NCBI RefSeq assembly: GCF_008367235.1 | Contig: NZ_VTZS01000003.1 | Coordinates: 186,001 to 250,000 of the forward strand | Length of the DNA stretch: 64,000 bases | DNA from: Pareuzebyella sediminis | GTDB taxonomy: Bacteria > Bacteroidota > Bacteroidia > Flavobacteriales > Flavobacteriaceae | Direction of reading: 5' to 3' | Shown here: one piece after another, positions 29,584 to 40,606 of the stretch | Layout: each line of letters starts with the position of its first letter | Position numbering within the stretch: position 1 is the stretch's first letter | Position numbers and translations under genes: made by a program | The notes under the pieces: generated by a model | Told to the model about the DNA's origin: nothing | Databases searched by the model: none | Seen by the model: the letters and a program-made list of their open reading frames with translations, nothing else

Positions 29584-32292
29584 TTAAAAGTTGAATCGAA
29601 CACTAGCATTCCAAGTTCTTCCGAAACCAAAGAAAACCCGGTTACTCACATTGATACCATCGTAGGTGACATCACCTGGTTCGACGAAATCATTAGTATC
29701 TGATTCTGCAATGTAAATAGTATCGAATACGTTATTGACATTTATCCGAAAGCTGAGCAGGTTCTCACCCAATGGTAATCCGTATGACAGACCGGCGTTA
29801 GCGAGACCAAAAGAGGGTAATTTCAAAGCACCCTGATCGGTAACGTCGGTGGCATCGAAGTCGGCATAGAGGTTATCGGCAAAACGGTATCCAGCATCAA
29901 TACTCAAATTTTCTATGATTCCAATATCGGTTCCTATGAATGCCGTAAACTGCGCCGCATCGCCCACTTTAACACCATCTAAAGGCAATATCTCCTGTTG
30001 GGGCTGTCCATCAACGATAATAGGCTCTTGATCGTTATCGAAGAAAGTAGCGCTCACATCATCTTGATATTCCCAATTACCTATAGATAACATCCCAGTA
30101 AATGCCAGACGATTGTTTACCTGTAAGCGTCCATCGAACTCAATACCGGTATGTACTTGCGTAATCCCCAAAAGGTTAGCATTGCCCCGTATTTCCTCAG
30201 GAGTATCCGCATTAAAAGTTGCATTGACGCTTTCAAACCTATCTTTCCAACTTGTACGATATAGGTTCACATTCGCTCTAAAGGAAGCACTTCTATATCC
30301 ATAACCCAATTCGAAACCAACAATCTTTTCATTGGTCAGATTAGGATTGAGGTTGTTGCCAAAATTTAGGTAAACGGCATCAAAAAGTGGTTGTTTGGAA
30401 TAATAGCCAGCATTGGCAAAAATATTGTGGTTAGCATTGATGTTCCAGTTAATACCGCCCTTTATATTACCACCAAGAATATTCTCAAAATCAGTTTTTT
30501 CAGGAGGGGTTTCCCCAAAAAATTCTTCTCTTGCAAAACCTTGGTTCGAAAGGGCTCCCTGAATAAAAGTCGTCACATCATCGGTAAAGTTATACTCTAT
30601 TTGACCAAATACGCCCAGCCAGTTTACAATTCCTGTATTGTAGTAATCTATTTTCTCTTCATCATCGATGTTTCCAAATACCCACCATGGTTGGTTAGCT
30701 TCGTAGGTCTCAAAAAATATGGGATTGGGGTCGTTATTTCGATTATCGGTCTGCAGATAGGCATCGCCTCCAAGTCGATTGTTGACCCTTCTATAATGAA
30801 AACCTTTGTAAGTTCTCAAGTCTATCCCGAAATCGACAACCAATTTATCGCTTATCCGATTGTTCAAATTAGCAAGAATACCATACCAGTTGTGGGAGTT
30901 GACCGATGCCCTTCGAGTAATGCCATTGGTATTGTTCTCGTTAGGATTTGTATCACTGTTATTTAAATACAGCCCATCTATCTGTTCCCTAGGAGTTGGA
31001 CTGAAATCTGGCACCAACTGCCCGCTATTGTAGGCAAAGATATCATCTATACGTACAAGACCATCTGAAGACCTGGGTAACTGGAACTGTCTTTGGCCAT
31101 TGATTTCGCCAATTTCGCCGGTTCCTCCACCACGACCAAAGGAGGCATAGGTAGAAGTTTCTAGGGTAGAAACATCATTAATAGTCCAAGCCCAGTTCAG
31201 ACTAATTACCGGTTTATGATAAAAGTTTCTGCGAAAACTAAATTCTTTACCGTTTAAATATCCCCAATCACTGTTGTAACGTCTGTTTGGTTCTCCATTC
31301 TCTCCATACTCCAGATAATCTTCGATGGAGGGAGCAAAATCCCTCTGATGGTGCCACTGGGGAGCCCCAGTAACGGTGAATTCCAAACTATGGTTCGTCG
31401 TGGTGTAGCCTAAAGCCAAGAAAAAATTGTATCCTTCAAATTTAGTTCCATCAGCATACATATTACCCCCGGTTCTACTCAGTAACAAGGAAGTTGAAAA
31501 GCCATTGTCTAACAATCCCGTAGAATACGACGCCAAGGTCTTTACATAACCATCGTTACCTACTGTTCCGGCTATCGTACCACCTTCTACATTTGTGGCA
31601 CTTCTCGTTACTACGTTGATTGTACCACCTACAGAGGAAACGGCCAGTTTAGAAGACCCAAGACCGCGTTGCACTTGTATTGCAGAGGTTACATCGGCCA
31701 AGCCGGCCCAGTTGCTCCAATAGACTTGGCCATTTTCCATATCATTAACGGGTACACCGTTTATCATTACGGCCGAATTGTTGGTATCAAAACCACGAAT
31801 ATTGATACGGGAGTCACCAAAACCACCACCGGTCTTGGTAGCGTAAATAGATGGTGTAGTATTTAGAATTTCAGGGAATTCTTGAGAACCCAACTTTTCC
31901 TGGATCTCTGCTGCTTTAATGGTAGAGACGGCAACTGGCGTTTTCCGATCCCTAGCAATATCTTGTACCCCAGTCACAATGACCTCATCCAAACTTTCCG
32001 CATCTTCAAGCAATGTAATTTGCCCAAGCTCGCCCGGACCATTGAAAGGAACCTCTTTTCTGATGTAGCCAATATAGGAAATGACCAATGTACCCGATGC
32101 TTCGGAAACCTCGATTGAAAAATTACCGTCGAAATCGGTCGAAACCCCATTAGTAGTTCCTTTAACCAAAATATTGGCACCGGCTAACGGCTGGTCAATT
32201 TGTTCGTCAATTATAGTTCCAGAAATCGTTCCTTGAGAAAAGGCCAAGGCCGCCATAAAGAAGGCGACCCCAAATAGGTATAGATTTTTCAT
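29584..32292 (-). CDS. TonB-dependent receptor with carboxypeptidase-like domain
   Basis: The 902-aa receptor starts MKNLYLFGVAFFMAALAFSQ (signal peptide). It continues with a carboxypeptidase-regulatory-like domain (about 22-105: 'ISGTIIDEQIDQPLAGANILVKG') and a plug with 'RINIRGFDTNNSAVMINGVPVNDM'. A large barrel ends in 'FGFGRTWNASVRFNF'. No susD-like gene follows, so it is not a classic SusCD glycan importer. The ligand is unknown. It has its own consensus promoter, an 84-nt leader with a small hairpin (GTGCC/GGCAC) and its own terminator. Confidence 0.92.
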   Translation of the reverse strand: MKNLYLFGVAFFMAALAFSQGTISGTIIDEQIDQPLAGANILVKGTTNGVSTDFDGNFSIEVSEASGTLVISYIGYIRKEVPFNGPGELGQITLLEDAESLDEVIVTGVQDIARDRKTPVAVSTIKAAEIQEKLGSQEFPEILNTTPSIYATKTGGGFGDSRINIRGFDTNNSAVMINGVPVNDMENGQVYWSNWAGLADVTSAIQVQRGLGSSKLAVSSVGGTINVVTRSATNVEGGTIAGTVGNDGYVKTLASYSTGLLDNGFSTSLLLSRTGGNMYADGTKFEGYNFFLALGYTTTNHSLEFTVTGAPQWHHQRDFAPSIEDYLEYGENGEPNRRYNSDWGYLNGKEFSFRRNFYHKPVISLNWAWTINDVSTLETSTYASFGRGGGTGEIGEINGQRQFQLPRSSDGLVRIDDIFAYNSGQLVPDFSPTPREQIDGLYLNNSDTNPNENNTNGITRRASVNSHNWYGILANLNNRISDKLVVDFGIDLRTYKGFHYRRVNNRLGGDAYLQTDNRNNDPNPIFFETYEANQPWWVFGNIDDEEKIDYYNTGIVNWLGVFGQIEYNFTDDVTTFIQGALSNQGFAREEFFGETPPEKTDFENILGGNIKGGINWNINANHNIFANAGYYSKQPLFDAVYLNFGNNLNPNLTNEKIVGFELGYGYRSASFRANVNLYRTSWKDRFESVNATFNADTPEEIRGNANLLGITQVHTGIEFDGRLQVNNRLAFTGMLSIGNWEYQDDVSATFFDNDQEPIIVDGQPQQEILPLDGVKVGDAAQFTAFIGTDIGIIENLSIDAGYRFADNLYADFDATDVTDQGALKLPSFGLANAGLSYGLPLGENLLSFRINVNNVFDTIYIAESDTNDFVEPGDVTYDGINVSNRVFFGFGRTWNASVRFNF

Positions 32293-36542: not shown

Positions 36543-37322
36543 CTAGTCCATTATAATTTTAAATTGATGCTTCAAACCGTTGTAACCATCCAGGTCGGCC
36601 TTGATCGATCCGACCGCTAAATCGGCCTGAATACGTACGGGGATTTTATTGTCGTCGGCAGACACCCAAAGGGAAAGGCTCTCTTGCTCTTTAAAAACCC
36701 GGCCCGATTGCACGTAAGGCCTAAATTTATAACATTCTACTTTACCAAACTTCGTTTTCAAAATTTCAGTGCCCAAATATTTTAGCTTAAAATTGAAAAT
36801 ACCATCATCATCGTACAACATCTTAAGTGTAATCGCCTCCCCTTTGATCAAATCATCAGGGTCGTAATTATTTCTTAGATAATAGAACGCGGATAATAAG
36901 TCTTGAATACTATCCTGTAGTTCGAAATTATACTTCTTATTGTGTTTTTTATCATTTAAAATCGCCTCATCTTTTTTATGATCAAAACGAATGTCATAAT
37001 CTTTGGTATAGCCACCTTCGTTAATCTTCCGAATGAATTTATAGGGCTTGCCATCTTCCATTCCGAAATAGCTTTCATAGGTGTCATCTACCTTAAAAAA
37101 AACACTTGCGAAACCTGTTGTGCGCCCTTTGCCAACCACATGATACACAGGTACGCCATCTATACTGGCCGATTTTACATGTAAAGTAGCATAGCTAGCG
37201 TTTAAAATTCCATAATGCATACGGAATTTTAGCCATTCGCCAGGCTCAAAGGCCGAATCACCTCCTTGCGCTAACGAGGAAAAGAGAGATAGTAATAATA
37301 ATAGCGTTACGACTTTTTTCAT
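36543..37322 (-). CDS. DUF3108 secreted protein
   Basis: A cleavable signal peptide (MKKVVTLLLLLSLFSSLAQG) is followed by about 240 residues with the DUF3108 pattern: 'FEPGEWLKFRMHYGILNASYATLHV', then 'KYNFELQDSIQDLLSAFYYLRN' and 'GKVECYKFRP'. The fold is a periplasmic beta-barrel-like domain of unknown function, widely present in Bacteroidota and Proteobacteria. It is the first gene of an operon with tryptophan dioxygenase and the M23 peptidase. A -7-like TAATTTTG lies on the coding strand at 37345-37338, without a good -33 partner. Confidence 0.88.
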   Translation of the reverse strand: MKKVVTLLLLLSLFSSLAQGGDSAFEPGEWLKFRMHYGILNASYATLHVKSASIDGVPVYHVVGKGRTTGFASVFFKVDDTYESYFGMEDGKPYKFIRKINEGGYTKDYDIRFDHKKDEAILNDKKHNKKYNFELQDSIQDLLSAFYYLRNNYDPDDLIKGEAITLKMLYDDDGIFNFKLKYLGTEILKTKFGKVECYKFRPYVQSGRVFKEQESLSLWVSADDNKIPVRIQADLAVGSIKADLDGYNGLKHQFKIIMD

Positions 37323-37443: not shown

Positions 37444-37547
37444 AAAAAAAAGCCTTGACAATGTTGTCAAGGCTTTTCCTAAATAACCAACCAAACTTTA
37501 AATTATGAAAAACCAATACTTAAAGTTGTAAGGGAACCACCCCTTAC
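37444..37547 (-). ncRNA. Candidate small regulatory RNA, about 104 nt
   Basis: A full transcription unit without a credible ORF is visible on the minus strand. An exact promoter (37581-37553) places the start about 6 nt downstream, at the base of a 7-bp hairpin (GTAAGGG/CCCTTAC, loop 6 nt). A second 8-bp stem (37527-37520 with 37501-37494) holds an 18-nt loop reading GUAUUGGUUUUUCAUAAU. After a linker UGGUUGGUUAUUUAGG comes a 14-bp intrinsic terminator with eight U residues. The loop is complementary to an mRNA start of the form AUGAAAAACC, and the linker to AACCAACCA leaders, suggesting a trans-acting antisense role (inference). It may belong to a known Rfam family such as Flavo-1; I could not test that. 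Confidence 0.6.
37448..37477 (-). terminator. Strong intrinsic terminator of the small RNA
   Basis: AAAAGCCTTGACAA and TTGTCAAGGCTTTT form 14 perfectly matched positions with a 2-nt centre. On the minus strand the hairpin runs into a tract of eight T. Confidence 0.85.
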
Positions 37548-37552
37548 ACCAA

Positions 37553-37581
37553 CAAATTTAAACCATACTTTTTCATAGCAA
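37553..37581 (-). promoter_or_regulatory. Promoter of the small RNA
   Basis: On the minus strand TTG (37581-37579), an 18-nt spacer and TAAATTTG (37560-37553) match TTG-N17-23-TAnnTTTG exactly. Confidence 0.65.
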
Positions 37582-38174
37582 ACGGTTTTAACTTACTTTA
37601 ACTATTACATTAACAGTTCTTTTTACTTACAAGAAAAAAATTGGCAATTTGTTAAGAGAAAACGGTAGAACCGACTAGATGAACCTTATTTCAGAGGCAG
37701 ATCGTCAATCCAATTTCATTTTTTTCATGAAGCGTTCCTAGTGATTACAGTTCCCATTCAATAGATTCAAACAAAGCCTTAAAATTTCACTTCCCGAATA
37801 ATTTCAATAAACATATTTAGTTGTATAAAATGGTTTCGCCCTAAGATAAGACACCCGACAGCACCATTTCGCCTTGTTCATCTTTTGATTCCTGAATTTA
37901 AAATAGTATTGGGAACCACATTGGGTATTGATAATGAGCAATTATCTAAATTCGACATGATATCCATTAGCTTTTGAACGTCATAAAAAAGAAGGAGTTA
38001 TTTCTTGAATTTAAATTTTATTCTTGGATCTTGCTGTGTAGTGAATTCTCCAAAAGAATGAAACGAATGGTCTAGCGTTTTACTATATGGCCCAAAGAAT
38101 GGCCGTTATGTCTCTTCATTCATTGAACATCAGTATTACAAATATTCGGAAAAAGGAAAACTGGTTCTTTTCTA
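37582..38174. other. Intergenic region, about 590 nt, no gene seen
   Basis: This lies between the small-RNA promoter and the stop of the patatin gene. It is A/T-rich with no long ORF with coding character, no tRNA-like fold and no clear terminator for the patatin gene. The one reading frame reaching into it (38120-38410 minus) is mostly a shadow of the patatin gene. Confidence 0.4.
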
Positions 38175-40442
38175 TCAAAACCAGTATCCGAGGCTAAAAA
38201 AGAAATTACTGGACTTGCCTTCTGGAGACCACGTATAATGCACTTGTAAAGGACCCAAAAATGATTCCCATCCATAACCGACACCATACCCTGAAAAATC
38301 AGGGCTCGTAAACCAATCCCCCGTTCTAAAAAGGTCATCGTCGACATTGGCATAGTTCGCCGAAAACATAAAATGATTTTTAGGTATAAATTCAAAATCC
38401 AACCTACCATAGGCTTTGACGAAACTATTTCCTGGCAAGCTTAAAAAATCATATCCTAAAAATGGGGTAAAATTATTTATCAAGTCGGCACCAAGGCCTC
38501 CCAATACAAAATCGAAGGAAGTCACATTCGAGGTGCCCAGTTTAAAGCCTCCTTCCGTCTCAATATTCATTGATAAATTCGAAAACAAAGGAAAAGCTGT
38601 GCCCATTCGGGCTTTCGCAATAGAAAATTCCTTGAAATTATCGTTAAAGTCAGATGACAGCACATAAAAATGAAAATCCCCATCAAAAAATAAGCCTTTG
38701 GAAGGAAAATATCGGTCGTCGTACGTATCCAATGTAAGTTGCCCAAAAGCACTATAAAAATTGCTTTTCTCAAAAAGGGTTCGGTCATCCTCGATGGTGA
38801 GGCCTAGAAAATCGTCTTCGCCGTTTTGCCTTAGCGTCTTTGTACTGTACTTTAAAAATTTGTATTCTATACCCATTCTATATGCAAACTCTTCACGTAA
38901 TACAGTCTGTACGTACATTTGATTCGTAAAGTCCTTCACATCGAGATTTATCGTATTGATATTTGCGCCAAAAGGTATTTCAAAATTACTCCGTATCAAG
39001 TCAAAGTTGATATCTTTTCCAAACTCATTAAAACGTGAGCTGATACCGAAGCTCCAGTAGGACCCTTTATCCACATAATATTGAAAGTTATAACGAATGT
39101 TGTCGCCAATGATAAAATCAAAGGATGTAACATCATCGCGCATAAGAAAGTTCTTCTGGGTCAAATTGATGATTCCCGCAGTTTTGTAAAGATTATCATA
39201 ATGAGCGCCTAAACGGATGAAAGTCTTATTCTGGTTTTCTATCAGCTTCAAGGTCAACTCTTCCTCATTGTTTCTGGTAGACAACCTATATCGTATCGTC
39301 TGAAAATTGCCGGTGGCGGATAGATTGCTGATTCCCTGTTGCAGCTTACCAAATGTGGTCGGTTCGTCGAGTTCAAACCTCAACTTACCCTTGACATAGC
39401 CACGGGTATAATTTTCCGCATCTGTAATCACCATTTTGTTTATGGTAAGCGAATCTTGAGTCTGTACCTTTCGAATCGATTTACTCCTTTTAAGTTCACT
39501 ATGTGGTGCAAGCCGCTCTAGCTCTTCATATTTTTGCATCGCAGCATTTTCCCCACTCGCAATAATGGCCTCATAAAGATTAAAATCAATGACACTGTAC
39601 TCGCTCATATCGGGTTTTATATAGATATCGGTACGCTCAGACTTCCTTTCCATATCCAATGCGGTTCTATAATTATTTATTTGAAGTAAGATTTCCGTCG
39701 CCGATGATAGGGCCTCTCGGTCTCTTAAGCCGTGCTGAACATCGACGCCGATAATGACATCGGCACCCATCGCCCGTACCTCTTCAACGGGATAATTGTT
39801 TACCACCCCACCATCAATAAGTACTCGACCATCAACAATGGCAGGATCAAATAGAGAAGGCAATGCCCCACTGGCCATGACCGCTTCTGGCAGGTACCCT
39901 TTATCAAGTAATACTTCTGCACCCGATTCGATATCCGTGGCAATGCATAGAAAAGGAATGGGCAAATTCTTAAAGTCTTTTACATCTCTAACCGGGTATA
40001 ATAAACGAACGAGTTCATTATATACATTCTGTCCTCCAGAATACGCTTGAGGTACTGAAACCTGGAATTTCTTGAACGGCAGGGTTATGGCATAGCGCTC
40101 AGAATTTTCCTTTTCATAAAAGGTTTTTGCTCCTCTTGGAAGTGTATCTTCAATCAAGTCTGTAAAGTCGGTATTCTTAAAAATGGAATCAAGCTCAAAT
40201 GCGGAAAAGCCAGAAGCATAGAGTGCACCTACAATGGCTCCCATACTTGTACCACCTATATAATCGATTTCGATACCGGCTTTCTCGATGACTTTCAAAG
40301 CACCTATATGAGCCATACCCTTTGCTCCTCCTCCGCTTAGGACCAAACCTACCTTGAGGTCCTTATTTTCCAGACCTTGGTTTTGTGCCATCGAGAAGGC
40401 TCCCACAAATAAAAATAACAAGATAACGACCAGTTTTTGCAT
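38175..40442 (-). CDS. Patatin-like phospholipase fused to an outer-membrane barrel
   Basis: The ATG at 40442 gives 755 aa with a signal peptide (MQKLVVILLFLFVGAFSMAQ); the longer frame needs TTG. The patatin domain (about 28-300) has the oxyanion loop GGGAKG (37-42), the nucleophile Ser66 in GTSMG and Asp210 in DGG, completing the Ser-Asp dyad. A POTRA-like module (about 310-390) and a BamA/Omp85-type barrel with terminal 'FFFSLGYWF' follow. This is the architecture of type Vd autotransporters such as PlpD, so the lipase is probably displayed at or released from the outer membrane. It is transcribed alone. Confidence 0.93.
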   Translation of the reverse strand: MQKLVVILLFLFVGAFSMAQNQGLENKDLKVGLVLSGGGAKGMAHIGALKVIEKAGIEIDYIGGTSMGAIVGALYASGFSAFELDSIFKNTDFTDLIEDTLPRGAKTFYEKENSERYAITLPFKKFQVSVPQAYSGGQNVYNELVRLLYPVRDVKDFKNLPIPFLCIATDIESGAEVLLDKGYLPEAVMASGALPSLFDPAIVDGRVLIDGGVVNNYPVEEVRAMGADVIIGVDVQHGLRDREALSSATEILLQINNYRTALDMERKSERTDIYIKPDMSEYSVIDFNLYEAIIASGENAAMQKYEELERLAPHSELKRSKSIRKVQTQDSLTINKMVITDAENYTRGYVKGKLRFELDEPTTFGKLQQGISNLSATGNFQTIRYRLSTRNNEEELTLKLIENQNKTFIRLGAHYDNLYKTAGIINLTQKNFLMRDDVTSFDFIIGDNIRYNFQYYVDKGSYWSFGISSRFNEFGKDINFDLIRSNFEIPFGANINTINLDVKDFTNQMYVQTVLREEFAYRMGIEYKFLKYSTKTLRQNGEDDFLGLTIEDDRTLFEKSNFYSAFGQLTLDTYDDRYFPSKGLFFDGDFHFYVLSSDFNDNFKEFSIAKARMGTAFPLFSNLSMNIETEGGFKLGTSNVTSFDFVLGGLGADLINNFTPFLGYDFLSLPGNSFVKAYGRLDFEFIPKNHFMFSANYANVDDDLFRTGDWFTSPDFSGYGVGYGWESFLGPLQVHYTWSPEGKSSNFFFSLGYWF

Positions 40443-40606
40443 CCTCTTTGCCAATTAGCTTACCTGTCGACTTCTGTCAAGGTCTTTATTCTTCGTTTCT
40501 TCATCTTTCGTCGCATTTGGGATTCCAATTACTTTCTCAATTCCTTTTAACCGACCAAATCATACAAAAATCAATTCAAACTGGATCATCGCGTGATAAT
40601 TAGAGG

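Follow-up and report, generated by a model that had tools for sequence, protein, structure and literature searches.

Envelope-directed small RNAs (sRNAs) that block translation initiation on outer-membrane protein mRNAs are represented in the enterobacteria by MicA, RybB and OmrA/B, which are Hfq-dependent and differ in sequence and phylum from the RNA described below. Among the Bacteroidota we know of few trans-acting sRNAs with known function, and to our knowledge no Hfq-like general RNA partner has been confirmed in this phylum. The best functional relative of the RNA considered here is FopS of Bacteroides, whose members, according to PMC11697453, bind near the start codons of SusC-like mRNAs, block translation in vitro and bind the protein RbpB, which is described as countering their repression. 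The FopS RNAs of Bacteroidaceae are 65–70 nt long, carry the seed in their 5' portion, have a canonical sigma-ABfr promoter and exist in several copies per genome, B. thetaiotaomicron having 14. The subject of this analysis is a window of 64,000 nucleotides from Pareuzebyella sediminis (contig NZ_VTZS01000003.1, positions 186,001 to 250,000; all coordinates count from the first letter of this window), whose minus strand carries, upstream of a DUF3108 gene, a locus that by its sequence is almost certainly a genuine small RNA gene. The best explanation overall, to which a probability of about 0.6 is given, is a trans-acting sRNA whose family extends over much of the Flavobacteriaceae.

Two further systems invite comparison by description rather than by sequence. 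GibS of B. thetaiotaomicron likewise targets translation initiation regions by pairing, its phylum lacking Shine-Dalgarno signals (PMC7366714); it differs in its promoter type and in having a second seed, R2 (PMC11697453). The 2020 Bacteroides map still found a general RNA chaperone elusive (PMC7366714). Rfp18 of Flavobacterium psychrophilum is needed for normal levels of secreted metalloprotease mRNAs (PMC9723704), so that its loss lowered the target mRNA, the opposite sign to that proposed here. In the literature consulted no description could be matched to the present RNA, a comparison that did not extend to the 85 new RNAs listed for F. psychrophilum.

The initial annotation had placed a complete unit on the minus strand at 37581–37444, with a hairpin, an 18-nt loop, a linker and a terminator ending in eight T, and the sequence is as claimed; its statement that no credible open reading frame (ORF) is present agrees with the ORF list of the window, which has none of at least 60 amino acids within the sRNA region. 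The minimum-energy fold of a 109-nt stretch has −40.2 kcal/mol, where shuffled versions average −20.1 (z −6.3; equalled by 0/200 shuffles), the predicted fold comprising three stems, the terminator among them counted as 16 pairs, and a weak 3-bp helix within the loop. By its sequence the locus has a putative promoter of its own, noncoding character and a predicted terminator of its own, as would be expected of the class of trans-acting anti-start sRNAs. No Rfam family reached its gathering threshold anywhere in the 64-kb window, and the suggested Flavo-1 (RF01705) is absent from the region's matches also at E up to 10; the family is new to Rfam at gathering thresholds.

Searching one genome per species for identical copies of the 18-nt loop gave at least 119 stretches. 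The RNA surrounds the loop in 110 of the 119 listed contigs (four of the 110 being cut by the stretch end), and the remaining nine (L033, L034, L040, L042, L059, L070, L081, L097 and L100) were set aside as chance loop matches without the RNA. Where the listed stretches carry a title (80 of 119), the full matches belong to genera of Flavobacteriaceae (Maribacter, Zobellia, Arenibacter, Muricauda, Croceitalea, Robiginitalea, Cellulophaga and others) or to loosely named Bacteroidota bins. For closer comparison 106 listed loci, the window included, were chosen by the loop plus TTTAA directly before it, so that this arm was selected and not tested; copies cut by the stretch end were left out, as were L007 and L035, which have an inserted A before the loop and the same 23 nt after it. 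These 23 nt 3' of the loop are identical in 105 of the 106 loci, and GGGTGGTTCCC is found in all 106. As the neighbouring DUF3108 protein has a median identity of 71% to that of the window (92 compared), the sRNA is under stronger constraint than the protein next to it.

Beyond the exact loop, a model search at E 0.01 matched 153 genomes out of 397 from the family, and in 71 genomes a match exceeded 80 bits; some of the weakest matches are just the 3' module of other RNAs. Besides the window's form, subtype A, the intermediate matches resolve into subtype B (AAAGUUUUCAUAAUUUAAAGUUUUGGUUGGUUAAU) and subtype C (UUUUUUCAUAAUUUAAGUUUUAGUUGGUUAAU). A second model matched in 22 genomes of one very large genus, which we infer to be Flavobacterium; the 21 matches inspected are subtype D, mostly AAAUUUCAUAAUUUAUAGUUUUUUGGUUAGUUAAU, and one Rfp RNA of F. 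psychrophilum may belong to it. Among the four subtypes the drifting parts are the hairpin and the loop's 5' half; UUUCAU is kept, with a purine pair and UUUA behind it, and so is GGUU or AGUU plus (A/G)GUUA before the terminator. Most copies carry the GUGGU hairpin, a loop missing in L163, L337 and L355.

Initially set as a test of the unit, conservation of stems and terminator in relatives was found, together with covariation in hairpin 1 and in the terminator. In an alignment of 60 subtype-A sequences, drawn from the 104 distinct sequences among the listed loci, the lower stem of hairpin 1 covaries (its outer pair is, for example, G-C in 29 and A-U in 22) and stem 2 hardly varies; the number of cells changed on both sides, the share of cells paired and the covariation score were each equalled by 0/500 shuffles. 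With diverged forms included, an alignment of 36 sequences, fitted to the model and thus favouring the structure, has changes on both sides in 21 of 29 pairs and 94.2% of cells paired; 0/500 shuffles were as good on all five measures, and sliding the partner by one column brought a clear loss. Conservation and structure are far beyond chance.

Gene order is kept as well. Of the 99 listed subtype-A loci for which a downstream gene was found, 94 have DUF3108 there, in the same orientation, and upstream stands either a protein that we take, from its start, to be HPPD (53 of 101; the fragment gave no Pfam match) or patatin (47 of 101). Most B copies and the five C copies have the same neighbours, as judged by eye, and gene order thus shows subtypes A, B and C to be orthologous. 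This arrangement, shared by most of the diverged subtypes, is what would be expected if the unit were a terminator-containing leader acting in cis on transcription into DUF3108. That explanation appears quite improbable, as G023 holds three copies (L161, L164, L168) in none of which DUF3108 was the next gene found, G352 has two copies in tandem, and the seed lies anywhere between about 80 and about 490 nt from DUF3108. Copy number is otherwise mostly one, and the window genome has one full copy. A function of the plus strand, for instance a short peptide MKNQYLK(L), is far less probable still: the subtype-A plus strand does read as a start region followed by 7–8 codons, but these become unrelated in subtypes B and C, where the minus-strand box, hairpin and terminator persist.

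The promoter had been described as TTG-N18 followed by what is here called the −7 box. Both parts are present in the window, and the box is conserved, TAnnTTT standing upstream in 105 of the 106 loci, mostly 33–34 nt from the loop; the TTG near −33, found in only 10 of these 105, is not conserved. What is fixed upstream is instead a GTTAAA repeat in tandem. A GTTAA lies 32–33 bp above the box in 102 of the 105 loci, three or more copies occur in 71, and successive copies are spaced by 10 bp (105 times) or 12 bp (67 times), a 10-bp direct repeat being the layout of OmpR-type response-regulator sites. The diverged subtypes keep the distance of the second repeat to the box: GTTAA stands 41–43 bp above it in 16 of 17 parsed copies, some with another, five subtype-C copies that the promoter pattern did not parse being outside the 17. 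In F. johnsoniae no −33 motif was identifiable, according to PMC7366714. A scan for E. coli-type promoters was discarded as unsuited to this phylum. In subtype-B promoters (L156, L159, L162, L165, L169) the stretch that separates GTTAA from the −7 box contains ATGCTTGCA, often as the near-palindrome TATGCTTGCATA.

Conservation, covariation and a seed in common with the experimentally studied FopS give good support to the claim of a trans-acting RNA whose loop complements mRNA starts. From loop to linker the RNA is the antisense of UAACCAACCAAACUUUAAAUUAUGAAAAACC, a sequence that resembles a Bacteroidota start region with adenines before AUG, and the seed UUUUUCAU of the RNA is complementary to AUGAAAAA. 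In the Rfam consensus of FopS the 5' seed, GUG-UUUUUCAU, aligns with UUGGUUUUUCAU of this RNA, so that the seed is the same letter for letter and sits in a loop instead of at the 5' end. The two RNAs also have in common a GGUUA stretch before an intrinsic terminator and the canonical sigma-ABfr type of promoter. The present RNA differs in its length (~104 nt), in being mostly single-copy where FopS has many paralogs, in the extra GUGGUU hairpin and in the place of the seed, and the FopS covariance model (RF04319) gives it only 15.8–18.6 bits (E 0.38–6.1; gathering threshold 56). By the Rfam test, then, it is not FopS.

Across 295 genomes of the class the FopS model scored above its cut-off in eight and reached E 0.1 in 59. 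Of the matches inspected, eight (L292, L293, L298, L302, L309, L310, L312, L313) were rejected as ordinary starts of opposite-strand genes that lie behind a terminator; L295, L296, L297, L303, L306, L307, L308 and L311 are kept as candidates. C10:115178 in the window genome has no such anti-start seed. Five of these from other families of the class (L295, L297, L306, L307, L308) read UUUUUCAUAG followed by UUUAG or UUAG, are not opposite-strand gene starts and are possible further anti-start sRNAs; AGGU precedes the terminator in all but L295. Within the Flavobacteriaceae, L339, L352, L353 and L354 (genus g175) are short multicopy RNAs built like FopS, with a 5' seed GAAGUUUUU(U)CAUAAUAGAUUGGUUA and a terminator and without hairpin 1, and have no FopS match at E up to 5.

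As to targets, the initial annotation had proposed a trans-acting sRNA that masks start codons of envelope genes; the trans-acting character and the anti-start loop are well supported, and the envelope targets have statistical support only. Targets were compared by duplex energies at starts picked by a simple script, some of them possibly wrong. In the window genome the loop pairs better with 25 SusC-like starts than with 42 window genes (−9.3 vs −7.5 kcal/mol, p 0.0024), and 1 of 100 shuffled seeds did as well. In seven other genomes bearing the RNA, 25 SusC starts again exceeded 300 signal-peptide genes (p 0.0004), and no loop effect (p 0.90) was seen for 25 SusC starts taken from eight genomes that lack a model match, the SusC sets with and without the RNA differing at p 0.003; this cross-genome test dropped starts without a signal-peptide-like beginning, keeping 25 of 30 per outside set and 22 of 25 here. 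The motif A[AC]C[CT]AAC, from 60 nt before to 30 nt into the gene, occurs in 12 of 47 SusC-like genes and 9 of 300 signal-peptide genes (p 1e-6). SusC-like starts thus pair modestly better with the loop than other genes do, and the effect is replicated; the loop results favour the envelope-receptor idea. That SusC-like receptors are the main targets is a tentative suggestion from these sequences, with somewhat less than even odds.

Single targets stand out less. For the TonB-dependent receptor of the window that had been singled out as a partner, the loop duplex has −12.7 kcal/mol, which places it in the top 15 of 173 starts; in this first ranking the own-genome loci were partly picked by pattern, and the comparisons given above were therefore preferred to it. 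The pairing claimed for it is unremarkable in the window, ATGAAAAACC with at most one mismatch occurring 15 times against 11.3 expected and as often in 20 of 100 shuffles. A genome-wide search for loop complements, also proposed at the outset, gave an excess over the reversed pattern, and 5 of the 29 complement sites inspected (L178, L183, L187, L188, L189) look like starts of genes of at least 150 amino acids; with so few start-like loci among the own-genome complements, no single dominant target was found. The pattern AACCAAC...ATTATGAAAA has a match in 53 of 120 genomes, many being the sRNA gene read backwards, and the remaining matches inspected are varied gene starts, many of secreted proteins or lipoproteins, and some chance sites. 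A universal-stress-protein leader common to G054, G074 and G118 was dropped, these genomes lying outside the listed RNA matches.

Under the preferred explanation, that of a trans-acting sRNA, a regulator would bind the tandem GTTAAA repeats and switch on the TAnnTTTG promoter. The ~104-nt RNA would present UUUUUCAUAAU in a stem-loop, pair with AUUAUGAAAAA at mRNA start regions and exclude ribosomes; the pairing potential is read from the sequence, and the action, covering of start codons, is probable by analogy with FopS. The GGUUGGUUA linker before the terminator is probably a protein-binding or stability element common to other RNAs and may also extend the pairing to AACYAAC-rich leaders. 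Secreted and outer-membrane proteins, SusC-like receptors foremost, would be the likely targets.

Several observations weigh against this explanation. The seed is partly paired in the predicted fold. In subtype A alone, four pairs are changed on both sides, a number equalled by 211 of 500 shuffles. Complements of the loop with at most three mismatches are few in the window genome (40 sites including the gene itself, against 23 for the reversed sequence), and a regulon search with GTTAAANNNNGTTAAA gave 5 sites against 4 for the reversed pattern, hence no regulon. A local role would fit the fixed position above DUF3108 as well. The motif A[AC]C[CT]AAC occurs in 2 of 25 SusC-like genes of genomes without the RNA, which does not differ significantly from 12 of 47 (p 0.12). 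The claim that the linker is complementary to receptor leaders finds support in the window genome, where the 25 SusC-like starts exceed the 42 window genes (−8.5 vs −7.2 kcal/mol, p 0.010; 0/100 shuffled seeds as good), but is weak in the seven-genome repeat (p 0.07 for 25 SusC starts); the SusC sets with and without the RNA do not differ in it (p 0.19), and in genomes without the RNA SusC starts likewise beat neighbour genes (p 0.0015), so that these linker results fail to connect the envelope-receptor idea with the RNA. Finally, base composition is confounded in these comparisons, the genomes without a match being other clades, and the filters might have missed copies in genomes called RNA-free.

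The linker bears on a further explanation, in which the main action is protein binding and the repeated GGUU units capture an RNA-binding protein that is titrated or delivered by the RNA. All exposed parts of subtype A contain GGUU, namely the hairpin loop (GUGGUU), the stem 2 loop (UUGGUU) and the linker (UUGGUUGGUUA), the constraint after the loop is near-total, and FopS binds RbpB (PMC11697453). Secondary model matches moreover place the linker before terminators in 3' untranslated regions (UTRs) of unrelated genes, namely hsp20 (four genomes including the window genome), rhodopsin (two), a SusD-like gene and a PepSY-like gene, identified by Pfam on one protein of each kind; its first role may therefore be other than pairing to AACCAACCA, and we take it for a portable 3' module, possibly a protein site. 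The module is not frequent, as TTGGTTRGTTA has 6 exact sites in the window genome, 3 of them preceding a strong terminator, against 10 reversed. Subtypes B, C and D keep UUUCAU where the GGUU of the loop is lost, and a protein site alone is therefore insufficient; as the main action, protein binding is judged unlikely. The trans-acting sRNA remains the preferred explanation; the features of the locus are collected in Table 1.

Table 1. Features of the sRNA locus and its surroundings in the window.
Feature	Coordinates	Strand	Remark
Small RNA, ~104 nt	37444..37547	minus	start inferred from the -7 box
Hairpin 1, GTAAGGG-GTGGTT-CCCTTAC	37528..37547	minus	loop GUGGUU; covarying lower stem
Stem 2, 5' arm ACTTTAA	37520..37526	minus	
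Stem 2 loop GUAUUGGUUUUUCAUAAU (GTATTGGTTTTTCATAAT in DNA reading), 18 nt	37502..37519	minus	carries putative anti-start seed UUUUUCAU
Stem 2, 3' arm TTAAAGT	37495..37501	minus	also within the conserved block antisense to a start region
Linker TTGGTTGGTTATTTAGG	37478..37494	minus	shared 3' module
Intrinsic terminator	37444..37477	minus	ends in eight T
-7 promoter box TAAATTTG	37553..37560	minus	TAnnTTT in 105/106 listed loci
TTG at -33, N18 before the -7 box	37579..37581	minus	not conserved; 10/105 listed loci
First GTTAAA repeat	37587..37592	minus	32 bp upstream of the -7 box; probable activator site
Second GTTAAA repeat	37597..37602	minus	10 bp above the first, 42 bp above the -7 box
Third, outermost repeat GTTAAt	37609..37614	minus	
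DUF3108 gene	36543..37322	minus	conserved downstream neighbour
Patatin-Omp85 gene	38175..40454	minus	one of two usual upstream neighbours
TonB-dependent receptor, start AUGAAAAAUC	29584..32292	minus	candidate target

Related elements were observed elsewhere. In the window genome, L344 697–769 (C10:1381696–1381768) is a FopS-like element in the 3' UTR of the PepSY-like gene, with a seed GUGUUUUUCAU, GAUUGGUUAGUUGAAAA and a terminator; the FopS model gives it 37.5 bits (cut-off 56), and it is absent from the 295-genome FopS listing, a search that used stricter filters. L343, also in the window genome (C14:260442–260552, about 10 kb past the window), has TTTTTGGTTGGTTATTTAGTTAGG followed by a strong terminator, with no clear gene before it, and is perhaps another small RNA. 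L172, L341, L360, L361 and L362 combine GTGTGGTTA or GAGTGGTTA hairpins with the GGUUGGUUAGUUA module and lie behind sigma54-like promoters (TTTGGCAC or TTTGGCAT), L172 having a tandem arrangement. Instead of UUUUCAU the seed of these RNAs is AUUCAU or ACCAU, and L361 and L362 have no CAU there.

In a wider perspective, the anti-start sRNAs might form one ancient superfamily of the class Bacteroidia, with FopS and the present RNA as branches and the GGUU-type signature as a docking site for an RNA partner, a doubtful proposal for which the joining intermediates would be the multicopy L339 and L352–L354, the sigma54-driven L172 and L341 and the 3'-UTR form L344. If it were true, a docking site for a general RNA partner with an Hfq-like role would lie in the second signature, which is GGUUGGUUAGUUA or GGUUAAU ahead of the terminator. 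In gut Bacteroides, FopS sRNAs control glycan-uptake genes; here a nearly invariant, syntenic and mostly single-copy RNA of a large, mostly marine family has a start-codon seed in common with them. It offers a defined knock-out target for asking about translational control of receptors outside the gut, and its shared 3' module a bait for an RNA-binding partner.
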